Origin: Chromera velia
Taxonomy: Eukaryota > Sar > Chromeraceae
NCBI GenBank assembly: GCA_018398765.1
Contig: JAHBMJ010001859.1
Span: 1-25,624, forward strand
Direction of reading: 5' to 3'
Length of the DNA: 25,624 nt
Shown here: positions 4,352 through 25,624 of the stretch, piece after piece
Numbering within the stretch: the first letter of the stretch is position 1
Layout of the letters: each line of letters opens with the position of its first letter
Made by a program: the position numbers and the translations under genes
The notes under the pieces: model-generated
Database searches by the model: none
Seen by the model: only the letters and a program-made list of their open reading frames with translations
Told to the model about the DNA's origin: nothing

Positions 4352-7300
4352 TCATCCTGCGGATTTCCGCCTGTCTGCGCCCTCACCTGGCTCTCCTCCC
4401 CCTCCCTCATCTTTCTCTCGGTCTGTCCCTTCCTCTCCGCTCTACGGTTTCCTATGGAAAGACCTAGCGCCGAGCCGCAGCAATAGACAGAGGAGAAACC
4501 AGAATGCCCTTTCATGTCCACCCACCTACCCACCCTCCCCCCTGACCTCCTGTAAATAGGGTTGGGCATTTTTTCCTTCAGCCCTCCAGGTCCCCCCATC
4601 CCCCCTCCAACTCCTCCAAGGGAGGGCACTCCAGGCGCCCCTCCTCCCATCATTCCGGGAACATATTTCCGCAAGTCAATGTCTGTCATCATCGGACCGC
4701 TCCTTGCTCTGATCGGCTGTGCTTGAGGTAGCCCCCCCATCCTCAACACTTTCCGAGTCGCATCCGAGTCCCCCTCCGCTCCCCTCGCGTGCTCAGCCAA
4801 CGAGGGAAGGAAGCCCGAAGAGGCCCCAGCTGGAGGAAGTCCGTTGACAGACAGAGGGGAGTCGCCCCCGAAATTCCAGGGAGACGGCGAGGGGGCAAAC
4901 TCGCTCTGACTCGAGGCGTTGGGCTGTCCCTTGGAGGGACCGACTGCACGCACGTACGGACATCCAGAGAGAAAAAGGGGAGGGGAGGCAAAGCGAAAAT
5001 GCAGGCATGCGAGTACGCAGACACATGAATCCGTTCTCGTCACACCGTTGCGGCAATCAGATAAGATTAGATGCAAGAAGTGATCTATCAAGAGTTTATG
5101 AGAGGCAGGTCATCTGGTTTCTTTCTTTTTCCTTTCATGACAGACTATATGTTTCTTCTTCTCCCTGTTTTTCTTCATGTACACGACGGACAAAAAGACA
5201 GCCAGGCAGACAGATCGAGAGAGAGAGGGAGAGGGATAGAGAGAGAGAGACTGTACATGCATGCTGGGCTTCTGCTGACCTCCCCATGCAAAGTTTCGGC
5301 GAAAGAAGTCCGTCGCATTGCTGCTTGTCTGAGTCCCCACAGAGATGCCCGTGAGGGGCTTCCTCGAAGTCCCGTGACGCCAGAGAGAGAGACCGGGTTG
5401 GGGGAGGGCCAACAGGGCAGAGGAGTCAATCTCGAAATCAACCGACAGAACCCGATCTGCATGGAAATTTGCTTCATGTTTCTTCTCGATCTTGCTGTAT
5501 TGATTTGTGTACGGATGAATGAGTACGGAGGTGGAAGGGCAGGGCACGCAACCACACAGCTGGGGAACATTCATTCATTCATGTTCCATTCCAAGTCCCG
5601 GGCTTCTTTTCCTGTCGAAAAGAAGGACGGGGAAACGGCACCAGTGTGGCAGACTAGTCGGTAGCGTGAGTCGGTGAGGACGAGTTGAGAGAACCCAGTG
5701 TCAGAAAGGCGGAAGAGGGAAGCGAGACTGGAGGGGATCCAGGTGTTAATTAGGTTCTGTTACTTGACTCCTTACATGCCTGCCGCTCTGCCTGCCTTCC
5801 CAACTCACCGATGCACCAGGCGACTGCTTCCTCAGTTCTCGGCCCGACTTCCTTTTCGATTCGCTTCCTCTGCTCCTCTTCTTCTCCTTTCAGACGATCA
5901 TGTTCGGAAGAGAGATGGTCTTTGCACTGCACACCCAGACAGACATACATACACACGTGCACGCGTGAACGCAGGCACACAGCACGCACACACACACACA
6001 CAGTCTCTCTCTCTCTCTCACACACACACACACTCTCTCACACACACGCACGCACGCATGCGCACAAGCTACAGCAGTTGAACACACACACAAAAAGGCA
6101 AAAATGGGAAAATCGGGCGGCATGATAGAAAGGAGTTGACGGGATGTACAACCATCTGCCCTAGCTCCTTCCCCTTTCTTGACCCTGTGTGTTCGTCTCT
6201 CCCCTCTGACCTCTTTCATCAGCGCCTGGTGTTCTGCTTCTTGCTCCTTCCTGCAGGGTGAGGGTCGATTTGTGGGAAAAGGCAAGAGAGGAAACAAGAC
6301 ATCGTGAGGGGACGGAAGAAGCAAGGAAGCAGTTGGACAGGAGGATGCGCAAAACCGGAGAACACTTTGAAGTGACAGGAGAGGGAAGCTGCGAGACGGC
6401 CTCCGGACAGAGAAAAGAGAAGACAGATGAGCAGAAAAAGAGAGCAGCCCTTTCGAATTTCTTTCTTCCCCTTGGTTGCCTGACCTGAACGCATCTGCAT
6501 CCCTCTCTGCCTCCTCCCTTGCCTTCTGAATAAGCTCTGCCCGGTTGTCGTACGCTTTTCTGAGAATCCCCTGAGCCTCCCGGTTGGCCTCGTCAAGCAT
6601 TCTTTCAAGAACGCCGGGGTCAATTGAGGGCACTCCAACGACAGCGGGGGCGGTTGAAGTCTTCCTCCGAAGAGAAAACCGTCTCCGCGTGTCTCTTTTC
6701 CCACCCTCTTTCTCAGCCTCAACTGAAGAAGACCGTTGGGAGTCTCCTGCTGCCCCCGCACCACCCACTGATGCAGTCGTGGCGTGAGAATCTTGAAGAG
6801 CCCCGGTGGCAGTGATAAGGGGACGAGGAAGGGAGCCGTCTCGTGGGCGTTGGGTGTCCGTTTCGGCCGGTGCCTCAATGTGCTTTCTCCCGCAGGAGAA
6901 GAGACGGGCGAACCCGTTCGGCCGTCTCTTCGGTTTCTCTTGTACTTTCATTTTCCCCACCACAGGAGGAGCACGGCCGGGCTTGGTTTCGGCTGCTGTG
7001 GCGGCAGCGGGACCTGCAGTGGCGGCAGGGGCGGTGGAAGGACCCGGGAAAGAGGGGGTGGGGGACTTGACATCAGGCGGCGCTACGGGGAGAAGCACCG
7101 TGCCTGAAGGCTGACGGAAACTATGAACTGCATTGGAGGAGCCCGAAGGCTTTCGTCTGAATTCATTTGAGGATGCTCCGCTCTTCATACGATCAAAATC
7201 TGGCACAAGGAGCTCTCCCCTGCCAGGCGCTTCGAGAGACTGCCCGATCGGTCGGATGCCCCCGCTTGCCTGTCTTCCAAAACTGCTACTTCTCTCTCTC

Positions 7301-8025
7301 TGAAAGAAGAGCTGTCCGGATGGAGCACTGGGTTTTCTGAAAGTCTGTGAGAGAAATTCTTTGTGTGAAGTGCCAATGGTGTCGGACTCAAAGCGCTTGA
7401 TGCGCTGGCTATCATATTCTTCTTGGGAAGCGTCACATCGCACGTCTCGTTTAGTGTCGGGATCAAACATGATCGCATCCGAGTGAAGCCTCGGCACACC
7501 CGAGGACTGTCGGTCAACTTGCATTGCGCGTTCTTCTGTTTCGGTTGTCCGTCCCTTTAGTGTCCCCTGCACCAGTTCCCTTGCCTCAGCAAATCGACTC
7601 GATCTGTCGAAAAACTTTGAATAGCTGGGACAGCGGAACAGGTCCTGGCTGAACGTCAAGAAATCGCTTCGGATCGTCTCGCGCTCCAAAGCTTTTCCAC
7701 AACACTTCTAAGCTGACAATGACACAAGCACGGGTGCCAAACCGCTCTACACAGAGCGATATGTCGAGTCGCTTGAGACGCCAAACTGAAAAAGGAAAGG
7801 ATACCTGCAAGAAAAGTCTCAAATTTTGTCCGAAATTCGCCAACCTGCAATAACCTGCATGGGGCTTTTACCCCATGCAGGCTTTGCCCGCGGGGTGGGC
7901 AGGTTCTGCATGACCCATCCTCCCTCATGAGAAAAGCCATGGCCCGGAAAGCGTAGCACTTACAAAGAGTTGAGGTGGGAGAATCTGCGATTGAAAAACT
8001 GCATGACGCACGCAATTTTCATCAT
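4065..8025 (-). CDS. Multi-exon coiled-coil protein with a V-ATPase subunit G-like segment
   Basis: My exon model on the minus strand is 8025-7964, 7844-7805, 7707-6485, 6250-6211, 5926-5809, 5727-5682, 5494-5280, 4943-4547 and 4152-4065 (stop TAA). All phases agree and give 742 residues. Residues 400-494 are a charged helix (starts VLERMLDEANREAQ, continues KAREEAERDADAF). Its length and pattern match V-ATPase subunit G, the peripheral-stalk subunit of the proton pump, which is normally a protein of only about 110-120 residues. The N-terminal 400 residues are disordered, Ser/Pro/Ala-rich, with repeated basic-Ser motifs (residues 157-161, 177-182, 217-222, 231-235, 375-379, 381-385). The C-terminus is Gly/Pro-rich and contains SVGTQT, resembling a dynein light-chain binding motif. 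Exons 1-5 are well supported; exon 6 and its weak donor (GTCCTC) are not. If exon 6 is not spliced, the protein stops at TAG 5656-5654 (518 residues) and 5494-4065 may be a second gene. The start is the first in-frame ATG of exon 1. DivIVA-like or generic coiled coil are alternatives. Confidence 0.6.
4319..4349. repeat. (CA)n microsatellite
   Basis: An uninterrupted CA dinucleotide run of about 31 bases. It lies inside the last intron (4546-4153) of the minus-strand coiled-coil gene. Confidence 0.95.
5982..6062. repeat. Compound (CA)n/(CT)n microsatellite
   Basis: Alternating CA and CT runs followed by a CGCA-type tract cover about 80 bases. They lie in the intron between exons 4 and 5 (6210-5927) of the minus-strand coiled-coil gene. 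Confidence 0.9.
7854..7881. repeat. Perfect hairpin inside intron 1 of the minus-strand gene
   Basis: The 11-base arm CCTGCATGGGG (7854-7864) and its exact reverse complement (7871-7881) flank a 6-base loop. The hairpin sits just upstream, in transcript sense, of the TTATTGCAG acceptor at 7845. The same intron carries a GGCCCGGAAAGCG motif (7940-7952) that recurs at the right end of the window. Confidence 0.8.
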
Positions 8026-9321: not shown

Positions 9322-12300
9322 TTTTTTTTTTTTCTTTCTTTCTTTTCTTTCTTTCTTTCTTTCTTTCTTTCCTTCTTTCTTTCCTTCTTTCCTTTCTTTC
9401 TTTCTTTCTTTCTTTCTTTCTATTTTTCCCCTTCTTTTTTGCTGGCTGTGTTCCGTCCCTCTCCTTTCTCACCCCTTGCTTGCCTCTTTCCATCCTTTTG
9501 CTTTGAGCCTGTGCTCTCCTTCCTCTTTGTCCGTTGAGTTGTGCCGGTGCGCTGGTTTGAAATGCCATGACTGCCCTTTGTGAGGTAGCGGTTCTTCTCT
9601 TTTCTCTTCTGTACTTCTTTGTTTTTGTTGAACGTGTTTGTTTGATTCTGTTGTTGTCGGTTCATTCATCCGTTTGTTTCAGTTTACTTCAAATTTCTTT
9701 TGCATTTTCTCTTGATCGTTGTCCTTCCTGTGTGTTTCTCCGCCTGCCTTGTTACTCTTCAGAATCGCGGAAAGGTTTCGGGATCCGAGAACTCGGCTTT
9801 ACGATCGCACTCTCCTGAGTCTTGACGAATCCGACTATGACTATTATGTTCACTGGGAAGGTTACGACAGGAGAAACGATGCGTGGTTAACGCACGAGAA
9901 CATTCGTAGTGAGGGGGAGAGACTGCCGGACAACGAGAGAATAGAGGACTCCCCCTCTGCCCAACCGGATCACGACCATGAAGGTTTGTTTGTTGCGCTC
10001 AGGAGGCAGGCCCTTTGAGTGTGTGCTTGCGCACTTGCGTGGGTGTGCGAGGAAAGTGCTTCAGGGGGCGGGTCGTAAAGCAGCACACAGGAGCTTTTCA
10101 GTGACAGCGCGGACTCCCGTGGGGTTCAGCGTGACGCGCTTCTGTCCCCCCCTCCCACCGGTGTGTGTGCGTATGTGTGTGTGTTTCGGTTTCGCAAACA
10201 TAGAGGCTTGGATTTGATGTGATGTGGTGTTCGGACCGATTTGTTGCAGGGATGGACGAGGCTTGGCTGCAAGAGCATGAGGAAAACACGAAAGTGAGTG
10301 AGTGTGTCAGAGAGAAGGGGGCTAAGAGGGCATGAGGGGCGTCGACCACTATGGGTTGGAGAGGAGAAAAAGTGGAAAGGCGGGTGGGGAAGAGTGCGGG
10401 TCCACGCGTAAATGGAGTGGGCTGTTACAGAGGTTGTGAAGGAGTTTTTGTTCTCTTTCTTTCGTTTCTTTGTGCACTCGCCCTCTTCCGCTTTTTTGTG
10501 AATTCGACTGCCTGTGCGGACAGGATCAGACAGCAGGGAGCTTTCATACTGCCCCCCCCCCCCCCCNNNNNNNNNNNNNNNNNNNNNNNNNNNNNNNNNN
10601 NNNNNNNNNNNNNNNNNNNNNNNNNNNNNNNNNNNNNNNNNNNNNNNNNNNNNNNNNNNNNNNNNNNNNNNNNNNNNNNNNNNNNNNNNNNNNNNNNNNN
10701 NNNNNNNNNNNNNNNNNNNNNNNNNNNNNNNNNNNNNNNNNNNNNNNNNNNNNNNNNNNNNNNNNNNNNNNNNNNNNNNNNNNNNNNNNNNNNNNNNNNN
10801 NNNNNNNNNNNNNNNNNNNNNNNNNNNNNNNNNNNNNNNNNNNNNNNNNNNNNNNNNNNNNNNNNNNNNNNNNNNNNNNNNNNNNNNNNNNNCCCCCACC
10901 ATGAATTCATTTGAATGTGAAATCAGGTCAAGTGCGTCATGACGATGGAGGTTGGGCCATTTCGAGTTCCGACATGGTCAGTCAGTGAGTCAGTGCGGAG
11001 CGGGGACACACACACACACACCGCGCGCGCGCGCGCGCACGGATGCGAGAGAGAGAGAGAGAGAGCTTCACCTGAATGGTGTCTTCTCATATTTTCACCT
11101 TCTTTCTTTTCTCTCTGAGAGTTTCGGGCAACCTATGAATCTGTCTAACTCTGCTGTGAGACATCATGGGTTGTAAGATAAGAAAAGGATCGATCGAAAG
11201 AAAATGTGAACTTAATTGCATGCTTACACTGACGACTTATTTCACTCAGGTACTACTCGCCTCTGCCTATCGGCTTTCATGGAAACGAAACGCTGTACGT
11301 GTGCGATTTCTGCCTGGAGCTGTTTGGGTCAGTGAGGGGGGGAGTGGAGTGAATGGATCAATCTTCTGTGGGTTGGCTCAAAGGAAGGTTGGATGGATGC
11401 TTTTTGATCATCTTTCCTCTCTGTCTTCCTTCGTTCGTCCCCTCCTTACCTCCCTCCTTCCCCACTTTGTTTCTCTGCTCCTCTCTCTCTCTCCCTTTGT
11501 ATGTATGTATGTATGTATTTATGTATGTATGTATTTTCTTGTTGGCTTTTGGCTTATGCGTTTCTCTATCGCATACACTCACTCTCTTTTCCGGTCGTGT
11601 GCCTCAAATAGCATGCTTCCTTCTCTTTGTGGGGCGAGAGCATTTCACGTCGACTGGTTGCACCGCCTGCCTGCAGTACCAAAAGAGCCCTGGAGCGACA
11701 CGAAAGCCGGTGCTACCTTCGGCACCCGCCTGGGGACGAAATCTACAGGTACGTCAGTGGGTGGGTGGGTATTTGGGTGGGCAGGTGGCTTCTGTCTGTC
11801 TTTGTCAATCGTCGGACCGAAGGGTGGAGGGAGAAGCAGGTTCGTTCAGCCTTCTTTCCATTCCATCCTTTCCATGCCGTCGCGCTTTTGAGTGCTTTTC
11901 GCTGCCTTCCTGATTTCTTGCCTGGTTGCCTTCCGCGGTAAAACAGAAATATTACAGCTGGCTGTACACAACTTCCCTTTCGAAGTCTATGCCGTCCCCC
12001 TCGATCCCTTCGTTCTCTTTCTCTCTCTCTCTTTTTTCTGGTTGTATTCGCACGCAGAGAAGGGAACGTGTCGATGTTCGAGGTCGACGGGTTCATGGCC
12101 CGCATTTATTGCGAGAACCTCTCGTACCTGGCGAAGCTTTTTCTCGACCACAAAACGCTCAAGTCAGGCAGACAGGCAGGAAAGAGGGAAGACAAAAGGC
12201 GGAAAATCGTCAGAACGGGGTGTGCGGGGGATTTCTTTACTTTACTGTCCATCACCAGGAGGGTGGGAAGGAATCGATGTGCCCTGGTGGCTGTCCATTT

Positions 12301-19787: not shown

Positions 19788-20808
19788 CCGCCACATGTAC
19801 AGCCCGACATCTCAGCCCCAGGTACGCCCCTCACAGGGAGGTGTAGTCTATCGGCAATTGCCAGTAACCGGTAATGGGGCCGTACTAATGGCCTCAGTCT
19901 ACTTTCCTTTTACCCGGTCCGACAAAAAAAAATAATAAAAATTATGGTTAAAAAAAAATTTCGCCTGCGGCGCCAAACTTCAAAAACATGTTTTTAAATG
20001 TTTAATGACATTTGAACTAGCATTTTAAAAGCCTATTAATAAAAAAAGAAATAACATAAAAAAAATTATAATTTACTAATTTTGGATGGTTCAGCTAGCT
20101 TTGCCATAGAGTGGTTTAGGTAGTGGCGTGCTCATGGTCCGTCTCAGACTATTTGGGTGAAATGCATGTGGTGTGGTCAATGTTTTTCTGTGTTTAAGTG
20201 TATAGCAGAGGGCACTATGGATAATGACCATATTTGATTTGATTATATTTGATTTGATTTGATTTGATTTAATTTGATTTAATTTGAGCTTCAACCTCAA
20301 ATATTTGATATTTGAGGTAAGATTTGAGGTTAACCTCTTAGGGTTCCTTACTGAGTCACTGACTTACTGTCACTCTGATCATTTTTCTCATGACAATAGT
20401 TATCAGAACATTTCTGATGTATGTTTCAAAAATTTAAAAATATATACATATAATTATAACTTATCAGTTCCGTAAAAAAAATATGCCTGTGTGGCAGTGT
20501 ATATACACTAGTCACTGAGACTCACTCTAGTACTAATAGAGATTAAGAACGTAAAATTGATAGATTTGAAATTGTATATAACTTTTTGTTGATACGATAA
20601 AGTTAGAGCACGTACCAAAATTGAGGTGACAATCACTCAGCTTTATGGCACTTCCTTTTCCTCTTCTTCATGATCACTTTCTTCAATGTGAATCGAATCG
20701 ATCGGTGGTGGGAGCTGCTGAGAGCTTTTTCTCTGGCTTTTCGGCTTTCCAGGAGTGGGTGCTCCTGGGCTTCTATTCGGTTGCGGAGAGATGACAACGG
20801 GGTGAGAC
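19788..20808 (-). repeat. 1-kb repeat module, copy 1
   Basis: Nearly identical to 20959-21952. The differences I found are a shorter GATTT microsatellite in copy 2 (15 bases fewer), a 12-base deletion in copy 2 near the end of the reading frame, and a few substitutions. On the minus strand the module carries the C-terminal coding end of a protein, then non-coding sequence with a (GATTT)n tract at about 20233-20285. It looks like the 3' part of a mobile element. Confidence 0.85.
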
Positions 20809-20957
20809 GGAGAACCGCGCACACGTTTGCTATTGCTGTTGGTGTTGGAACCGTCCTGTTTCTGGGCAGCTAAGCATCCAGAGTTGGTAAGTTCGGCTAC
20901 CCTCTGTGCCGCGCCAGGGCCGACAACAAGCCCCTTGTGTTGGAGGTGAATATAGAG
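20643..20957 (-). CDS. Partial ORF, unrecognised protein, 5' end cut at contig seam
   Basis: Open minus-strand frame ending in TAA at 20645-20643. The C-terminus (from SHPVVISPQPNRSPG) is Pro/Ser/Lys-rich and ends in an acidic run (ESDHEEEEKEVP). It is shared with the ORF at 21799-22227, but the sequence upstream of SHPVV (AAQKQDGSNTNSNSKRVRG) is different. No domain is recognised. The frame runs into the N at 20958, so the start is missing. A mobile-element protein is likely from the repeated context, but no function can be assigned. Confidence 0.4.
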   Translation of the reverse strand, partial: LYIHLQHKGLVVGPGAAQRVAELTNSGCLAAQKQDGSNTNSNSKRVRGSPSHPVVISPQPNRSPGAPTPGKPKSQRKSSQQLPPPIDSIHIEESDHEEEEKEVP

Positions 20958-20958
20958 N
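20958..20958. other. Single-N contig seam
   Basis: The N marks an artificial join. The sequence just right of it (CCGCCACATGTACAGCCCG) also occurs at 19788, so two contigs that each contain the 1-kb module were placed end to end here. Any frame crossing it is unreliable. Confidence 0.9.
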
Positions 20959-21952
20959 CCGCCACATGTACAGCCCGACATCTCAGCCCCAGGTACGCCC
21001 CTCACAGGGAGGTGTAGTCTATCGGCAATTGCCAGTAACCGGTAATGGGGCCGTACTAATGGCCTCAGTCTACTTTCCTTTTACCCGGTCCGACAAAAAA
21101 AAATAATAAAAATTATGGTTAAAAAAAAATTTCGCCTGCGGCGCCAAACTTCAAAAACATGTTTTTAAATGTTTAATGACATTTGAACTAGCATTTTAAA
21201 AGCCTATTAATAAAAAAAGAAATAACATAAAAAAAATTATAATTTACTAATTTTGGATGGTTCAGCTAGCTTTGCCATAGAGTGGTTTAGGTAGTGGCGT
21301 GCTCATGGTCCGTCTCAGACTATTTGGGTGAAATGCATGTGGTGTGGTCAATGTTTTTCTGTGTTTAAGTGTATAGCAGAGGGCACTATGGATAATGACC
21401 ATATTTGATTTGATTATATTTGATTTGATTTGATTTGATTTGAGCTTCAACCTCAAATATTTGATATTTGAGGTAAGATTTGAGGTTAACCTCTTAGGGT
21501 TCCTCACTGAGTCACTGACTTACTGTCACTCTGATCATTTTTCTCATGACAATAGTTATCAGAACATTTCTGATGTATGTTTCAAAAATTTAAAAATATA
21601 TACATATAATTATAACTTATCAGTTCCGTAAAAAAAATATGCCTGTGTGGCAGTGTATATACACTAGTCACTGAGACTCACTCTAGTACTAATAGAGATT
21701 AAGAACGTAAAATTGATAGATTTGAAATTGTATATAACTTTTTGTTGATACGATAAAGTTAGAGCACGTACCAAAATTGAGGTGACAATCACTCAGCTTT
21801 ATGGCTCTTCTTCATGATCACTTTCTTCAATGTGAATCGAATCGATCGGTGGTGGGAGCTGCTGAGAGCTTTTTCTCTGGCTTTTCGGCTTTTCAGGAGT
21901 AAGTGCTCCTGGGCTTCTATTCGGTTGCGGAGAGATGACAACGGGGTGAGAC
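20959..21952 (-). repeat. 1-kb repeat module, copy 2
   Basis: Second copy of the module at 19788-20808, same orientation. It begins right at the contig seam, so its true 3' boundary is unknown. At 21952/20808 the two copies diverge abruptly within a reading frame, immediately upstream (minus strand) of the codons for SHPVV. Confidence 0.85.
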
Positions 21953-22227
21953 TCACAGCCATAAATAGTTTCTCCTTCCCCCTCAGCTCCTTGTATTTTC
22001 ACCTGACACTGAATCATATTTGCCCCCTTTTGCACGGACCATTTTTTTTTTGCGTACCCGACTCTAAAAACAAATGCCTCCTTCTTCCCGTTCGATCCTG
22101 TCGGATTGTGTAACATGTCTTTACGGGGTGTAAAATGTTTGCAGACGCTCAAAAAGGGGGCCGTAAAAGATGTTCCAGCACCAAAAAAGTTAACACAGCT
22201 GTTCGGGAAAACGTTCAGCTGATCGGT
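21799..22227 (-). CDS. Partial coding exon, unrecognised protein sharing a C-terminal module
   Basis: The minus-strand frame is open from just after a TAA at 22230-22228 down to TAA at 21801-21799. It reads as protein (CVNFFGAGTSFTAPFLSVCK, VFRVGYAKKKWSVQKG) and ends in the Pro/Lys-rich acidic tail shared with 20643-20957. There is no early in-frame ATG; the first is at about 22119. The true start is therefore probably in an upstream exon, with an acceptor such as CCGATCAG near 22216. No family is recognised. The repeated tail argues for a mobile-element gene, but a host gene whose end was captured is also possible. Confidence 0.45.
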   Translation of the reverse strand, partial: TDQLNVFPNSCVNFFGAGTSFTAPFLSVCKHFTPRKDMLHNPTGSNGKKEAFVFRVGYAKKKWSVQKGANMIQCQVKIQGAEGEGETIYGCESHPVVISPQPNRSPGALTPEKPKSQRKSSQQLPPPIDSIHIEESDHEEEP

Positions 22228-23297
22228 TTACCTCTGCATGAAGTAAAAAGGAGTGAAACGTCAATTTCAGTGCAGTTCAAAACGTTTTTTTTTTGAGAGC
22301 AAACCATCAAGATTTAGGTTTTTTCATTTGAATCAGCATGCGTGACGGATCGGTACTTGCAAAAGTTTTTTCGGGACCTTCATATTTGAGGTTGAAAGTC
22401 ATATTGATCAAATATTTGATCGTATTTGATAGGTCTTTAAACACTAGGTCCTCCCTGACTGGATATTTGATTTGAGCTTAAGCCCTACCTCAAATCAAAT
22501 CAAATCAAACATGGTCACTAACTATGGACAAACCATCCACTTCCAGTTGTATAATCTGCTTATACACACCCTGGTAATACCTAGATACACCCAGGGTGTC
22601 TGTCTTGCCCACTACAATTTTTAATAAGGCAATGAATTCATTTTAATTTGTTTTTATCCAACTTCCTAGCACTAAGCTATAACATAAACTTGAATTCTAC
22701 CACCATCTTGCTCAGACTAGCTGTATCATAAACTATATAATCAGTTTATATGATCTCTTATAGGTGGTAACTCTAGTACAGTAGCACTTCTTCGGACTGT
22801 GCCAACTATGATTGATTGATTAACGTTGCATTATGAAGTAAAGTCAATGTCAGGCAAGCTTAAGATGTACACGCATGCCAAGCGTACGCACTAGCGTACG
22901 CACATTCATGCATGCTGTTCAGTCTGATACGCGTATGTATGCATGCAGTGGATGTCTTCCAGTCTGAAATCAGTCTGTAGCCTTCTGTAAGGAAAGCTGT
23001 AGGAAAGTACTGACTATGCATGACAGAACTTCAATACCATAAGCCCCATTACGTTATATTAGCCCTGCTAGTAGCCCTGCTGCACCTGCTATCCAGCTAG
23101 CGATTGACCTATAACGGAGTGTTAGTGACTGTTAGAATTCTACCATGGTAAGTCTTTGCCGACTACCAGCAAACTCTGCCGGTAATTACTGGTTACCGGT
23201 AATGAAGCTTGTTTACGTACCGCCGAAAAACTCGGTAACAAACCCTGGATACCCCCCCTGACACTCCAGTCTGTCTTGAAATGGATGTTCTAATGCT
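22228..23297. other. AT-rich region with repeat fragments, no gene seen
   Basis: Positions 22380-22515 hold an inverted, diverged fragment of the (GATTT)n section of the 1-kb module (CAAATCAAATCAAATC, next to a match to GACCAT on the other strand). Positions 22880-22900 repeat GCGTACGC twice. Around 23195-23207 there is a short match (ACTGGTTACCGGTAATG type) to 19860-19880. No coding frame is convincing. Confidence 0.5.
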
Positions 23298-23470
23298 GGC
23301 CGCGCCTACGGCACGATTCTTTCAAGACTGTCTGCGCCTTCTACAAAAAATTTTAAGTGTACTTTATTTTGGCCGCGCTTTCGGTACGCTACCTTCAAGT
23401 TAAACCACGCCTGCGGCGCAGACGTTTCAAGTCTGGCCACGCCTACAGCGTGGCGTTTTAAGTTTACTAG
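23298..23470. repeat. Degenerate 32-base tandem repeats
   Basis: Units starting CCGCGC or CCACGC and ending near TTCAAG or TTTAAG begin at about 23373, 23405 and 23437, exactly 32 bases apart. A related unit sits at 23300. The core GCCTGCGGCGC also occurs at about 19965 and 21136 inside the 1-kb modules. Role unknown. Confidence 0.6.
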
Positions 23471-23694
23471 AGAAGCATTGAGCGGTATCACACACTGCCT
23501 CTTGAGCAAAGTGAAAGGCGGCGACTGCAAGCGCCCCCTTCCCTCCTCTGTTTACGTTCTGTCTGTCGCATACAGGGACACTGCATGCATTTATCATGAT
23601 GATTGTGTAGACGGATCCGAAGAATCTTGGCAGCTCGTCTGAAGGTCTCTCCCGCTGCAGTACTAGCGAATTGTGTCTTCCACTGATACCCTTT

Positions 23695-24876
23695 TCAGAG
23701 CCTCGGGCGATGGACGCACCTTTCCTCATGACCAGCCAGAGCTTTGAGGGTCAAGAAGACCTCACGGCACCCTGAGGTGGCATAGTCACAAGGTGCTTCA
23801 CCGAGCTTGCGGGCAAGCTCCTCGAGGCTTCGGTTGCGAATGCGCGTCCAGCGGTTTCTGCACAGAGTGCAGGAGCGCGTCAGAGAAACGCAGCGACGAC
23901 AAGCGCTGTGGCCGTTCTCGCATATGTACACTTTGCCCGTCATCCATTCAAAACAGATGAAACAACGAAGAACCTCGTGGGAAGGGCCCGAAGGAGGAGC
24001 CTGGGGAGCCTCTGAGTCTGAGTCATCGGTCTCCTGCTCCTCCTGCTGGTGTTGCGGTGAGTGCCCAAAGGGCCTGAAGGGACTTTCAGCAGGCTGCCCG
24101 AAGATGCCTCCTCTGAGCTGCGGCTGCTGCTGCTGTGTAGATGGCTGACCAAAGAGCCCTCCAGTTGTCTGATGCTGCTGTGGCGGTTGCTGCCCAAAGA
24201 GCCCTCCCACTCTGGGCTCCTGCTGCTGCTGCTGTGGCGGCGGCTGCCCAAAAACCCCTCCCACTCTGGGCTCCTGCTGCTGCTGTGGCGGTGGCTGCCC
24301 AAAGAGCCCTCCAGTTGTCGGCTGCTGCTGTGTAGATGGCTGACCAAAGAGCCCTCCAGTTATCTGATGCTGCTGTGGCGGTTGCTGCCCAAAAAGCCCT
24401 CCCACTCTGGGCTCCTGCTGCTGCTGCTATGGCGGCGGCTGCCCAAAGACCCCTCCCACTCTGGGCTCCTGCTGCTGCTGCTGTGGCGGCGGCTGCCCAA
24501 AGACCCCTCCCACTCTGGGCTCCTGCTGCTGCTGCTGTGGCGGCGGCTGCCCAAAGACCCCTCCCACTCTGGGCTGTGTAGATGGCTGACCAAAGACCCC
24601 TCCCACTCTGGGCTCCTGCTGCTGCTGTGGCGGTTGCTGCCCAAAGAGCCCTCCCACTCTGGGCTCCTGCTGCTGCTGCTGTGGCGGCGGCTGCCCAAAG
24701 ACCCCTCCCACTCTGGGCTCCTGCTGCTGCTGTGGCGGTGGCTGCCCAAAGAGCCCTCCAGTTGTCAGCTGCTGCTGCGGTGGTTGCTGCCCAAAGAGCC
24801 CTCCGGACTGCTGGAAGATACCTCTGGAAGCTCCGGTGGGTTGCTGTGACTGCAACGACCTATGACCACCGAACAT
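23695..24876 (-). CDS. GLFG-repeat protein with C-terminal SIAH-type RING finger (one in-frame TAG)
   Basis: The frame runs from ATG at 24876 (MFGGHRSLQSQQ) to TGA at 23697-23695, 393 codons. The first two thirds hold 15 G-L/V/I-F-G motifs in Gln/Pro-rich spacers (GGLFGQPPPQQQQ), the type seen in FG nucleoporins. An acidic linker (EEQETDDSDSE) follows. Then comes a RING with spacing C-x2-C-x10-C-x3-H-x2-C-x2-C-x6-C-x2-C (starts CFICFEWMTGKVYICENGH) and the first half of a SIAH zinc finger (PCDYATSGC, GHEERCVHRPR). SIAH RINGs are E3 ubiquitin ligases; the substrate-binding domain is absent here. A TAG at 24429-24427 stands where other repeat units have CAG (Gln) and the frame continues unbroken. 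Possible readings are a nonsense mutation, readthrough, an assembly error or sense decoding. An upstream exon is possible, since the frame stays open to about 24948. Confidence 0.7.
24105..24835 (-). repeat. Coding tandem repeats for GLFG units
   Basis: Repeats with CTG/CAG runs and the plus-strand words GGCTGCCCAAAGA and CCCTCCCACTCTGGGCTCCT recur about every 45-60 bases. On the minus strand they encode the GLFG/Gln-Pro units of the RING protein. Long plus-strand frames rich in Leu and Ala across this stretch are antisense shadows. Confidence 0.9.
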
Positions 24877-25139
24877 ATCGATGGATATGTATCCTTGCAC
24901 GTGCAGAGGAGACTGGCCAGACTGCGCTCGCGACAGACTTTCGGACAACGCAAACAGATAAGAAGAAAAAGGATGAGCACAATCCTAGGTCTTTGTCAAT
25001 GACAAACAGAATAAAAAGTGTTACAGAGATTTCCCCTTTTCTTTAATCATAAAATTCCACAGGCACGTATATACGTACATTCTCAAACCCTGCATGAATG
25101 CATCATTAACGTAGCTAGGCATGCATGCATACAAGCATC
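24877..25139. other. Upstream flank of the GLFG-RING gene
   Basis: Minus-strand upstream sequence of the GLFG-RING gene. It includes a pyrimidine-rich tract (about 24960-24975 on the minus strand) ahead of CGAAAG, which could be a splice acceptor for an unseen upstream exon. Otherwise I see nothing identifiable. Confidence 0.4.
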
Positions 25140-25176
25140 TGACGCAAGCAATTAAGCTTGCGAACGGCCCCGGAAA

Positions 25177-25200
25177 GCAAGAAAAAAATTTTTTTCTTGC
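25177..25200. repeat. Perfect 24-base palindrome
   Basis: GCAAGAAAAAAA followed directly by its reverse complement. A second small inverted repeat (GCAAGC, six bases, GCTTGC) lies at 25144-25161. Between them is GGCCCCGGAAAGC, the motif shared with intron 1 of the minus-strand gene. Confidence 0.9.
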
Positions 25201-25337
25201 GAAGGTAAAGAAAAGAAAAATGAGAACTGCACAATTGACGCACGCCGGGCCGTCGCCGGCCAGTCGACCGCGCGCCGACTCCCCTCCCCCCCNCCCCCCC
25301 CCCAGGAAAAAAGCCCCGGGGTAAGCTAAAACCCATA

Positions 25338-25576
25338 CATCTGACGCACGCATAGCATAAATCAGCCTTTCGGGGCCGGGTTTTTGGTGAAAGACACTGC
25401 ATGGCCCCAGAAAGCGAAGCGGGGGGCACTTACAAAACAAAAATACCCCAGCCCATATGAATGAATGAATGAATTAGAATGAATGAATGAAATTGGCTTT
25501 ACTATGCGTGCATACTAGTCTTTCACCAAAAACCCGGCCCCGAAAGGCTGGATTTGTACTATGCATACGTCAGATG
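25338..25576. repeat. Long inverted repeat, MITE-like or hairpin structure
   Basis: A perfect 32-base inverted pair lies at 25363-25394 and 25519-25550 (one arm starts CAGCCTTTCGGGGCC). Imperfect outer arms extend to 25338 and 25576 (CATCTGACGCACGCATAGCA against TATGCATACGTCAGATG). The 124-base centre carries GGCCCCAGAAAGCGAAGC, GCACTTAC and an ATGA microsatellite. Confidence 0.85.
25457..25491. repeat. (ATGA)n microsatellite
   Basis: ATGA units with one interruption, about 35 bases, in the centre of the long inverted repeat. Confidence 0.9.
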
Positions 25577-25624
25577 GCCGCCAGGCTTTTTTCCCGTGGG
25601 GGGGGGAGGTTTCTGCGCTGCTTT

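Follow-up and report, generated by a model that had tools for sequence, protein, structure and literature searches.

The locus described here raises the question of whether repeats of the nuclear pore type and a SIAH-type RING belong to one gene of Chromera velia, and of what such a gene would mean. The window analysed is the whole of contig C1855 (25,624 nucleotides) from a genome assembly of 177.8 Mb in 4040 contigs. The reading frame is located on the minus strand at 23695-24876; it runs from an ATG at 24874-24876 to a TGA at 23695-23697 and comprises 393 codons, an internal stop among them, before the terminal stop codon. Along this frame the G-x-F-G repeats come first, followed by an acidic linker, the RING and a zinc finger. 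The preliminary description had one frame carry all of these; repeats, RING and finger do share a single frame, but it is interrupted by a TAG at 24427-24429 (minus strand), which is codon 150 and falls between repeats 8 and 9. The 5' open part (24427-24948, minus strand) contains the MFGG start region and repeats 1-8, and the 3' open part (23695-24426, minus strand) contains repeats 9-15, the acidic linker, the RING and the first zinc finger. The openness of the frame across the array is weak evidence, since a plus-strand ORF of 262 codons is also open throughout and two further minus-strand ORFs (129 and 135 codons) extend over much of it. The domain order is real and is unique within the searches made, on a copy with an interrupted frame.

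The RING (C3HC4, Sina_RING; 23860-23964, minus strand) contains all eight zinc ligands with the spacing C-x2-C-x10-C-x3-H-x2-C-x2-C-x6-C-x2-C, and reaches 35.5 bits against a cut-off of 29.3. A complete, SIAH-spaced RING had been claimed beforehand, and the ligands, the profile score and a match to the SIAH1 structure bear this out: among solved structures, the RING-finger part of 93 amino acids matched SIAH1 (9g0l) over residues 3-91 with E 3.2e-13, and with E 2.1e-19 when a family profile was used. Judged by these sequence comparisons, the RING match is certainly beyond chance. Contacts between RING domains and E2 enzymes usually use the Ile of C-x-I-C and the Arg following the last RING Cys. 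Both residues are retained, and the domain may act as a ubiquitin ligase together with an E2. An AlphaFold2 model of the RING-finger part, based on 7 sequences, has a mean pLDDT of 77.3 and a pTM of 0.52. When the genome was searched at the DNA level for the RING region, the window was the sole hit and no second copy was found.

Only the start of a SIAH zinc finger had been announced after the RING. As read from the ligands and from an alignment to SIAH1, what lies there is probably the whole first finger (C, C, H, C; 23716-23790, minus strand). All four ligands are present (C-x6-C-x12-H-x3-C), but the Sina_ZnF profile gives 19 bits, under its 32-bit cut-off. The frame stops six codons past the last ligand of this finger, and inspection by eye of all three minus-strand frames as far downstream as 22401 showed no second finger. 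The Sina_TRAF substrate-binding domain was not found in the frame with the Pfam profiles, as the preliminary description had stated; a genome-wide Sina_TRAF search gave no match, and its controls were silent too, so that nothing follows from it on absence across the genome.

The remainder of the contig was also surveyed. No above-threshold Rfam match was obtained in the window. Short GC-rich hairpins with T-rich tails are located downstream of the frame at 23405-23456, and a bacterial-type scan, which is not relevant for a eukaryote, gave 8 terminator-like sites at 23000-25624 versus 2.9 expected. A perfect 33-base inverted repeat with imperfect outer arms (25363-25395 and 25518-25550, with 122 bases between the copies) lies close to the end of the contig and resembles a small MITE-like mobile element of the hairpin type. 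Two minus-strand frames at 20643-21005 and 21799-22152 encode almost the same protein segment (SHPVVISPQPNRSPGA...), which points to a local duplication; neither frame matched a Pfam family. A minus-strand frame of 599 codons at 5890-7689 weakly resembles the V-ATPase G subunit (18.1 bits, cut-off 28.6), and a run of 326 N occupies 10567-10892.

The RING-finger part is not alone in this genome, a search of which returned at least eight other places. In five of them (C1143, C3792, C3742, C2488 and C172) the RING and first finger are present and no second finger follows in frame; other partners come next, or the frame ends. In the alignment these sister modules are 34-44% identical, their finger closes with H-x3-C, and the window module keeps all ligands at ~45% identity to the nearest sister. 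The partners are ankyrin in C3792 and C172, MORN repeats in C2488 and a UBA-like end in C1143 (19.4 bits, which does not reach the cut-off of 22.4); C3742 has no further Pfam match, and membrane-like segments were noted by eye among the sister partners. The RING sits at the frame start in four of these five sisters. As in the window gene, a long low-complexity-looking stretch lies ahead of the RING in C1143, there without a Pfam domain; this N-terminus is P/Q-rich and has no FG repeats. In the tree the window gene is placed together with C1143 with a support of 84/88, which is not firm. Seven rows entered the alignment and tree, that of C3413 with its RING part only; C279 and C3779 were not included. 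C3413 is the most orthodox member (Sina_RING 52.6 bits) and holds the sole Sina_ZnF match of the own-genome search, on a separate stretch, with C-x2-RPFPC leading into a second finger. The RING of C3779 is of another kind, and the match to a TRAF-type finger there does not reach its cut-off. The idea that the FG region replaces the substrate domain is not borne out in that form by this comparison: the five sisters have no FG repeats, and no second finger was seen in them either. As the lack of second finger and substrate domain is common within the family, it did not arise with the FG repeats.

Some members of the family show broken frames. C279 contains one TGA and one TAA within the matched stretch. 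In C2488 (L013, 2201-3276) and C3792 (L011, 2401-3261) the MORN/ankyrin-like repeats resume in another frame past the stop; these breaks in repeat domains may be decay, introns or assembly errors.

The array itself (24097-24801, minus strand) contains exactly 15 G-[L/V/I]-F-G repeats (8 L, 6 V, 1 I) in the same frame at a spacing of 13-18 codons, and the motif scan thereby returned the number first reported. A six-frame scan of the 25.6 kb window gave just two further instances of the motif. The Pfam family Nucleoporin_FG was matched with 68.9 bits on 24430-24948 and 61 bits on 23695-24405 (cut-off 32.2), and FG-like residues are also found beyond the repeated units, in the start MFGG and in RPFGH of the linker. 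The array was built mostly by multiplication of a unit of ~45-54 bases, so the 15 copies are not independent observations. At the motif codons G-G-.-F-G-Q, 5/75 differ from the consensus and all five of these are synonymous, representing three distinct changes; the five motif codons of this count were picked after the fact. Across the ten-codon repeat core, non-synonymous changes account for 21 of the 35 changed codons, which leaves the array without a general sign of protein-level constraint. Signs in the sequence that the array was once coding are modest.

The composition of the array (30% glutamine, 17% proline, with 12 K/R and 8 D/E among 262 spacer residues) allows for a tail without any tie to the nuclear pore, namely a generic Q/P-rich extension that brings RINGs together in clusters. 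Such a tail would also suit the 7/15 repeats that are not strictly GLFG, and the P/Q-rich, FG-free N-terminus of the nearest sister, C1143. The strong Nucleoporin_FG match and the G-x-F-G core, unbroken in 15/15 units with strict GLFG in 8/15, speak against it, and a generic tail is considered unlikely.

Nucleoporin_FG matches were obtained on at least six contigs, and among the matches listed C1855 alone was also among the RING contigs. The order of repeats and RING had been put forward as unusual, and with both kinds of profile run against the own genome no other contig appeared in both listed match sets. A search for relatives in viral contigs gave 16 pattern matches, of which 0 were confirmed. 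The Nup98 autopeptidase domain (Nucleoporin2) was found in four places (C3310, C793, C167 and C220), with stops within the matched stretch in C793 and C220, and gave no match on the window contig. By eye, C3310 and C793 look nearly duplicated in their FG parts. A search for the array elsewhere in the genome yielded, outside its own contig, one weak match, on C167 (E 2.4e-4). C167, C3494 and C3460 are GxFG genes with glutamine-rich spacers and possible donors of the tail. The spacers of the Nup98-like gene on C167 contain 0 K/R and 2 D/E in 362 residues, and the C3494 pieces 3 and 0 in 142. With 20 charged residues in the window spacers versus 2 in C167, Nup98-like cohesion of the window array is not assured.

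The interruption of the frame bears most directly on whether the gene is still functional. Because of the TAG at 24427-24429 the gene is not a single open frame, and a spliced equivalent would have to skip this codon. Eight G-x-F-G repeats precede the TAG and seven come after it. The first in-frame methionine past the TAG is 162 residues later, within the RING; as none lies between the TAG and the RING, the assembled frame cannot restart to yield a repeat-RING protein. The present copy is best read as recently broken, as misassembled, or as one in which splicing bypasses the stop.

The TAG occupies the position at which sister repeat units encode glutamine, and a code in which TAG is decoded as glutamine throughout the genome would make it no stop at all. 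This was judged unlikely on scans of the genome for HSP70 and light-harvesting stretches. The light-harvesting proteins themselves indicate a photosynthetic eukaryote, whereas a plastid gene used as a marker gave no match. An internal TAG was present in 0/38 HSP70 stretches, with TGA in one. In the light-harvesting scan, internal TAG was found in 4/58 stretches, which by itself would suit such a code, but TGA was more frequent (7/58), and read-through of introns would give such a pattern. The remaining 12 Nucleoporin_FG rows, two of them from the window's own array, have no internal stop among the matches listed. A glutamine-coding TAG is therefore regarded as extremely improbable. The top HSP70 match, L039 on C4039, resembles bacterial DnaK as judged from its sequence, which suggests that C4039 is a leftover bacterial contig in the assembly.

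If the stop is real, the locus would be a young pseudogene of a formerly coding fusion, in which the RING is no longer made and at most a short FG-only peptide remains. The lack of a later start before the RING, the frame breaks in C279, C2488 and C3792 and the one copy found of the RING region fit this. The unit bearing the TAG is otherwise nearly identical to the neighbouring units, because of which the change would be recent. Against this, the lesion is the only one in 393 codons, the ligands of RING and finger are intact, and the motif-codon changes are silent. Loss of the gene is a serious possibility, although the odds are somewhat against it. The published C. velia assembly comprises 193.66 Mb in 5953 scaffolds, and, in the available part of that genome paper, models with in-frame stops are given a pseudogene annotation (PMC4501334); if the genome is the same, the locus might bear that label there.

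Alternatively, the true gene may be open and the stop an error of assembly, the short reads having failed on the tandem array. Within the array, stretches as long as 92 bases recur without a difference, which makes it unreliable in a short-read assembly, and the frame breaks of two sisters are also located in repeat domains. The sequence spanning the TAG is, however, unique in the array, so a plain collapse would probably not create a TAG by itself, and an assembly error is held to be somewhat unlikely.

Splicing was considered with a splice-site model derived from the own genome, consisting of 17 donors and 13 acceptors mostly inferred from HSP70 genes. Of 15 inferred HSP70 introns, one donor and two acceptors were dropped as doubtful, and one exon gap in C2567 yielded no row; three donors were added from C3494. 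With this small model an acceptor-like site, which is not evidence of splicing, scores 9.7 between the array and the RING (first exon base 24073, minus strand) and exceeds 8 of the 13 model acceptors as scored in the leave-one-out test. A donor-like site with a score of 7.2 (first intron base 23719, minus strand) is located just before the frame end; coding seems to continue beyond this site, given that 'RP' and the final zinc ligand are encoded past it. Introns of at least 60 bases that would skip the TAG in frame can be drawn from 576 GT-AG pairs, the best of which has a poor donor; these scores speak neither for nor against a spliced form.

The acceptor-like site would also suit two separate proteins, the array being intronic or part of another transcript and a RING exon starting near 24073. 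The GLFG-coding stretches of C3494 do look intron-split. Donors inside the array are nevertheless weak, the best scoring 3.6 where 16 of the 17 model donors reach at least 4.6 in the leave-one-out test; moreover, RPFGH keeps FG-like residues on the exon side, and the silent changes in the motif codons again argue for a coding array. In the one frame read upstream no further exon was seen. Separate proteins are improbable.

The explanation preferred here, with a probability of about 0.4, is that a SIAH-derived module of RING and first finger gained a nucleoporin-type N-terminal tail that would address the predicted ligase to nuclear pores or FG condensates. The domains and the order in which they stand are observed, as are the family and the uniqueness within the searches made. 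Both domain types exceed their Pfam cut-offs in a single frame, with the zinc ligands retained and G-x-F-G kept in 15/15 units, and the sister modules with differing partners (ankyrin, MORN, UBA-like) and the candidate FG donors of the genome are consistent with such a history. On the other side stand the TAG, the non-synonymous core changes, the charged spacers, the acceptor-like site before the RING and the broken sister frames; the breaks in C2488, C3792 and C279 fit decay of the family as well as assembly error or introns.

According to this explanation, an ancestral SIAH-type module would have lost the second finger and the substrate domain and given rise to a family whose partner region varies from gene to gene. 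One member would then have acquired the N-terminal G-x-F-G tail, enlarged by multiplication of the ~45-54 base unit; the origin of the tail, its cohesion and its location in the cell are presumed. Through its cohesive FG tail the RING would be positioned or concentrated within the FG phase of the nuclear pore or within FG-like condensates. The tail could mix with the pore FG phase or bind transport receptors, both of which are known for GLFG repeats (PMC13242641, available part). The RING would hand ubiquitin from an E2 to neighbours in the FG phase. For the assembled copy to function today, the TAG would have to stem from an assembly error or be removed by splicing. That a working ligase addressed by FG repeats exists today, as a portable RING-finger cassette whose partner sets the place and which exerts ubiquitin control over pore components or transiting cargo, is doubtful.

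Several known systems resemble parts of this gene. SIAH1 (SIAH/seven in absentia) has the same RING signature and first finger in the same order and at nearly the same spacing, whereas the window is without the second finger and the substrate-binding domain and has a long FG-repeat N-terminus and an in-frame stop. GLFG nucleoporins of the Nup98 kind likewise show G-[L/V/I]-F-G repeats, glutamine-rich spacers and an MFGG start; the window differs by the attached RING, by spacers more charged than those of C167 and by the lack of an autoproteolytic domain on the contig. The sisters C1143, C3792, C3742, C2488 and C172 have the same module as the window, but their partners are UBA-like, ankyrin, MORN or membrane-like and not FG. 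The plant protein HOS1 is not known to have FG repeats. In the available part of PMC12626886 it is reported as a RING-type ligase at the nuclear pore and as part of the pore scaffold with an ELYS-like region; its likeness to the window is by description only. NUP98 fusion oncoproteins, as far as the available text of PMC8983581 goes, combine a disordered NUP98 part with another domain into condensates that decide the site of action; they are somatic cancer fusions driving aberrant gene expression, and that text names no ligase partner. By analogy, these fusions may serve as a precedent for FG tails that re-address attached domains (PMC8983581). No protein combining FG repeats and a RING was found in the open-access literature, including the available parts of PMC7789003, PMC4501334, PMC9601220, PMC12407827, PMC13242641 and PMC12626886, and nothing was found there on C. 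velia nucleoporins or on protist proteins with a SIAH-type RING and ankyrin.

If expressed, the gene would encode an FG-repeat protein equipped with a RING in nature, a product of evolution rather than of leukaemia, and would make it easy to test whether cohesive repeats suffice to direct a ligase to nuclear pores. Should the copy prove broken, the family still shows SIAH-type modules without a substrate domain beside varied partners in a single genome.
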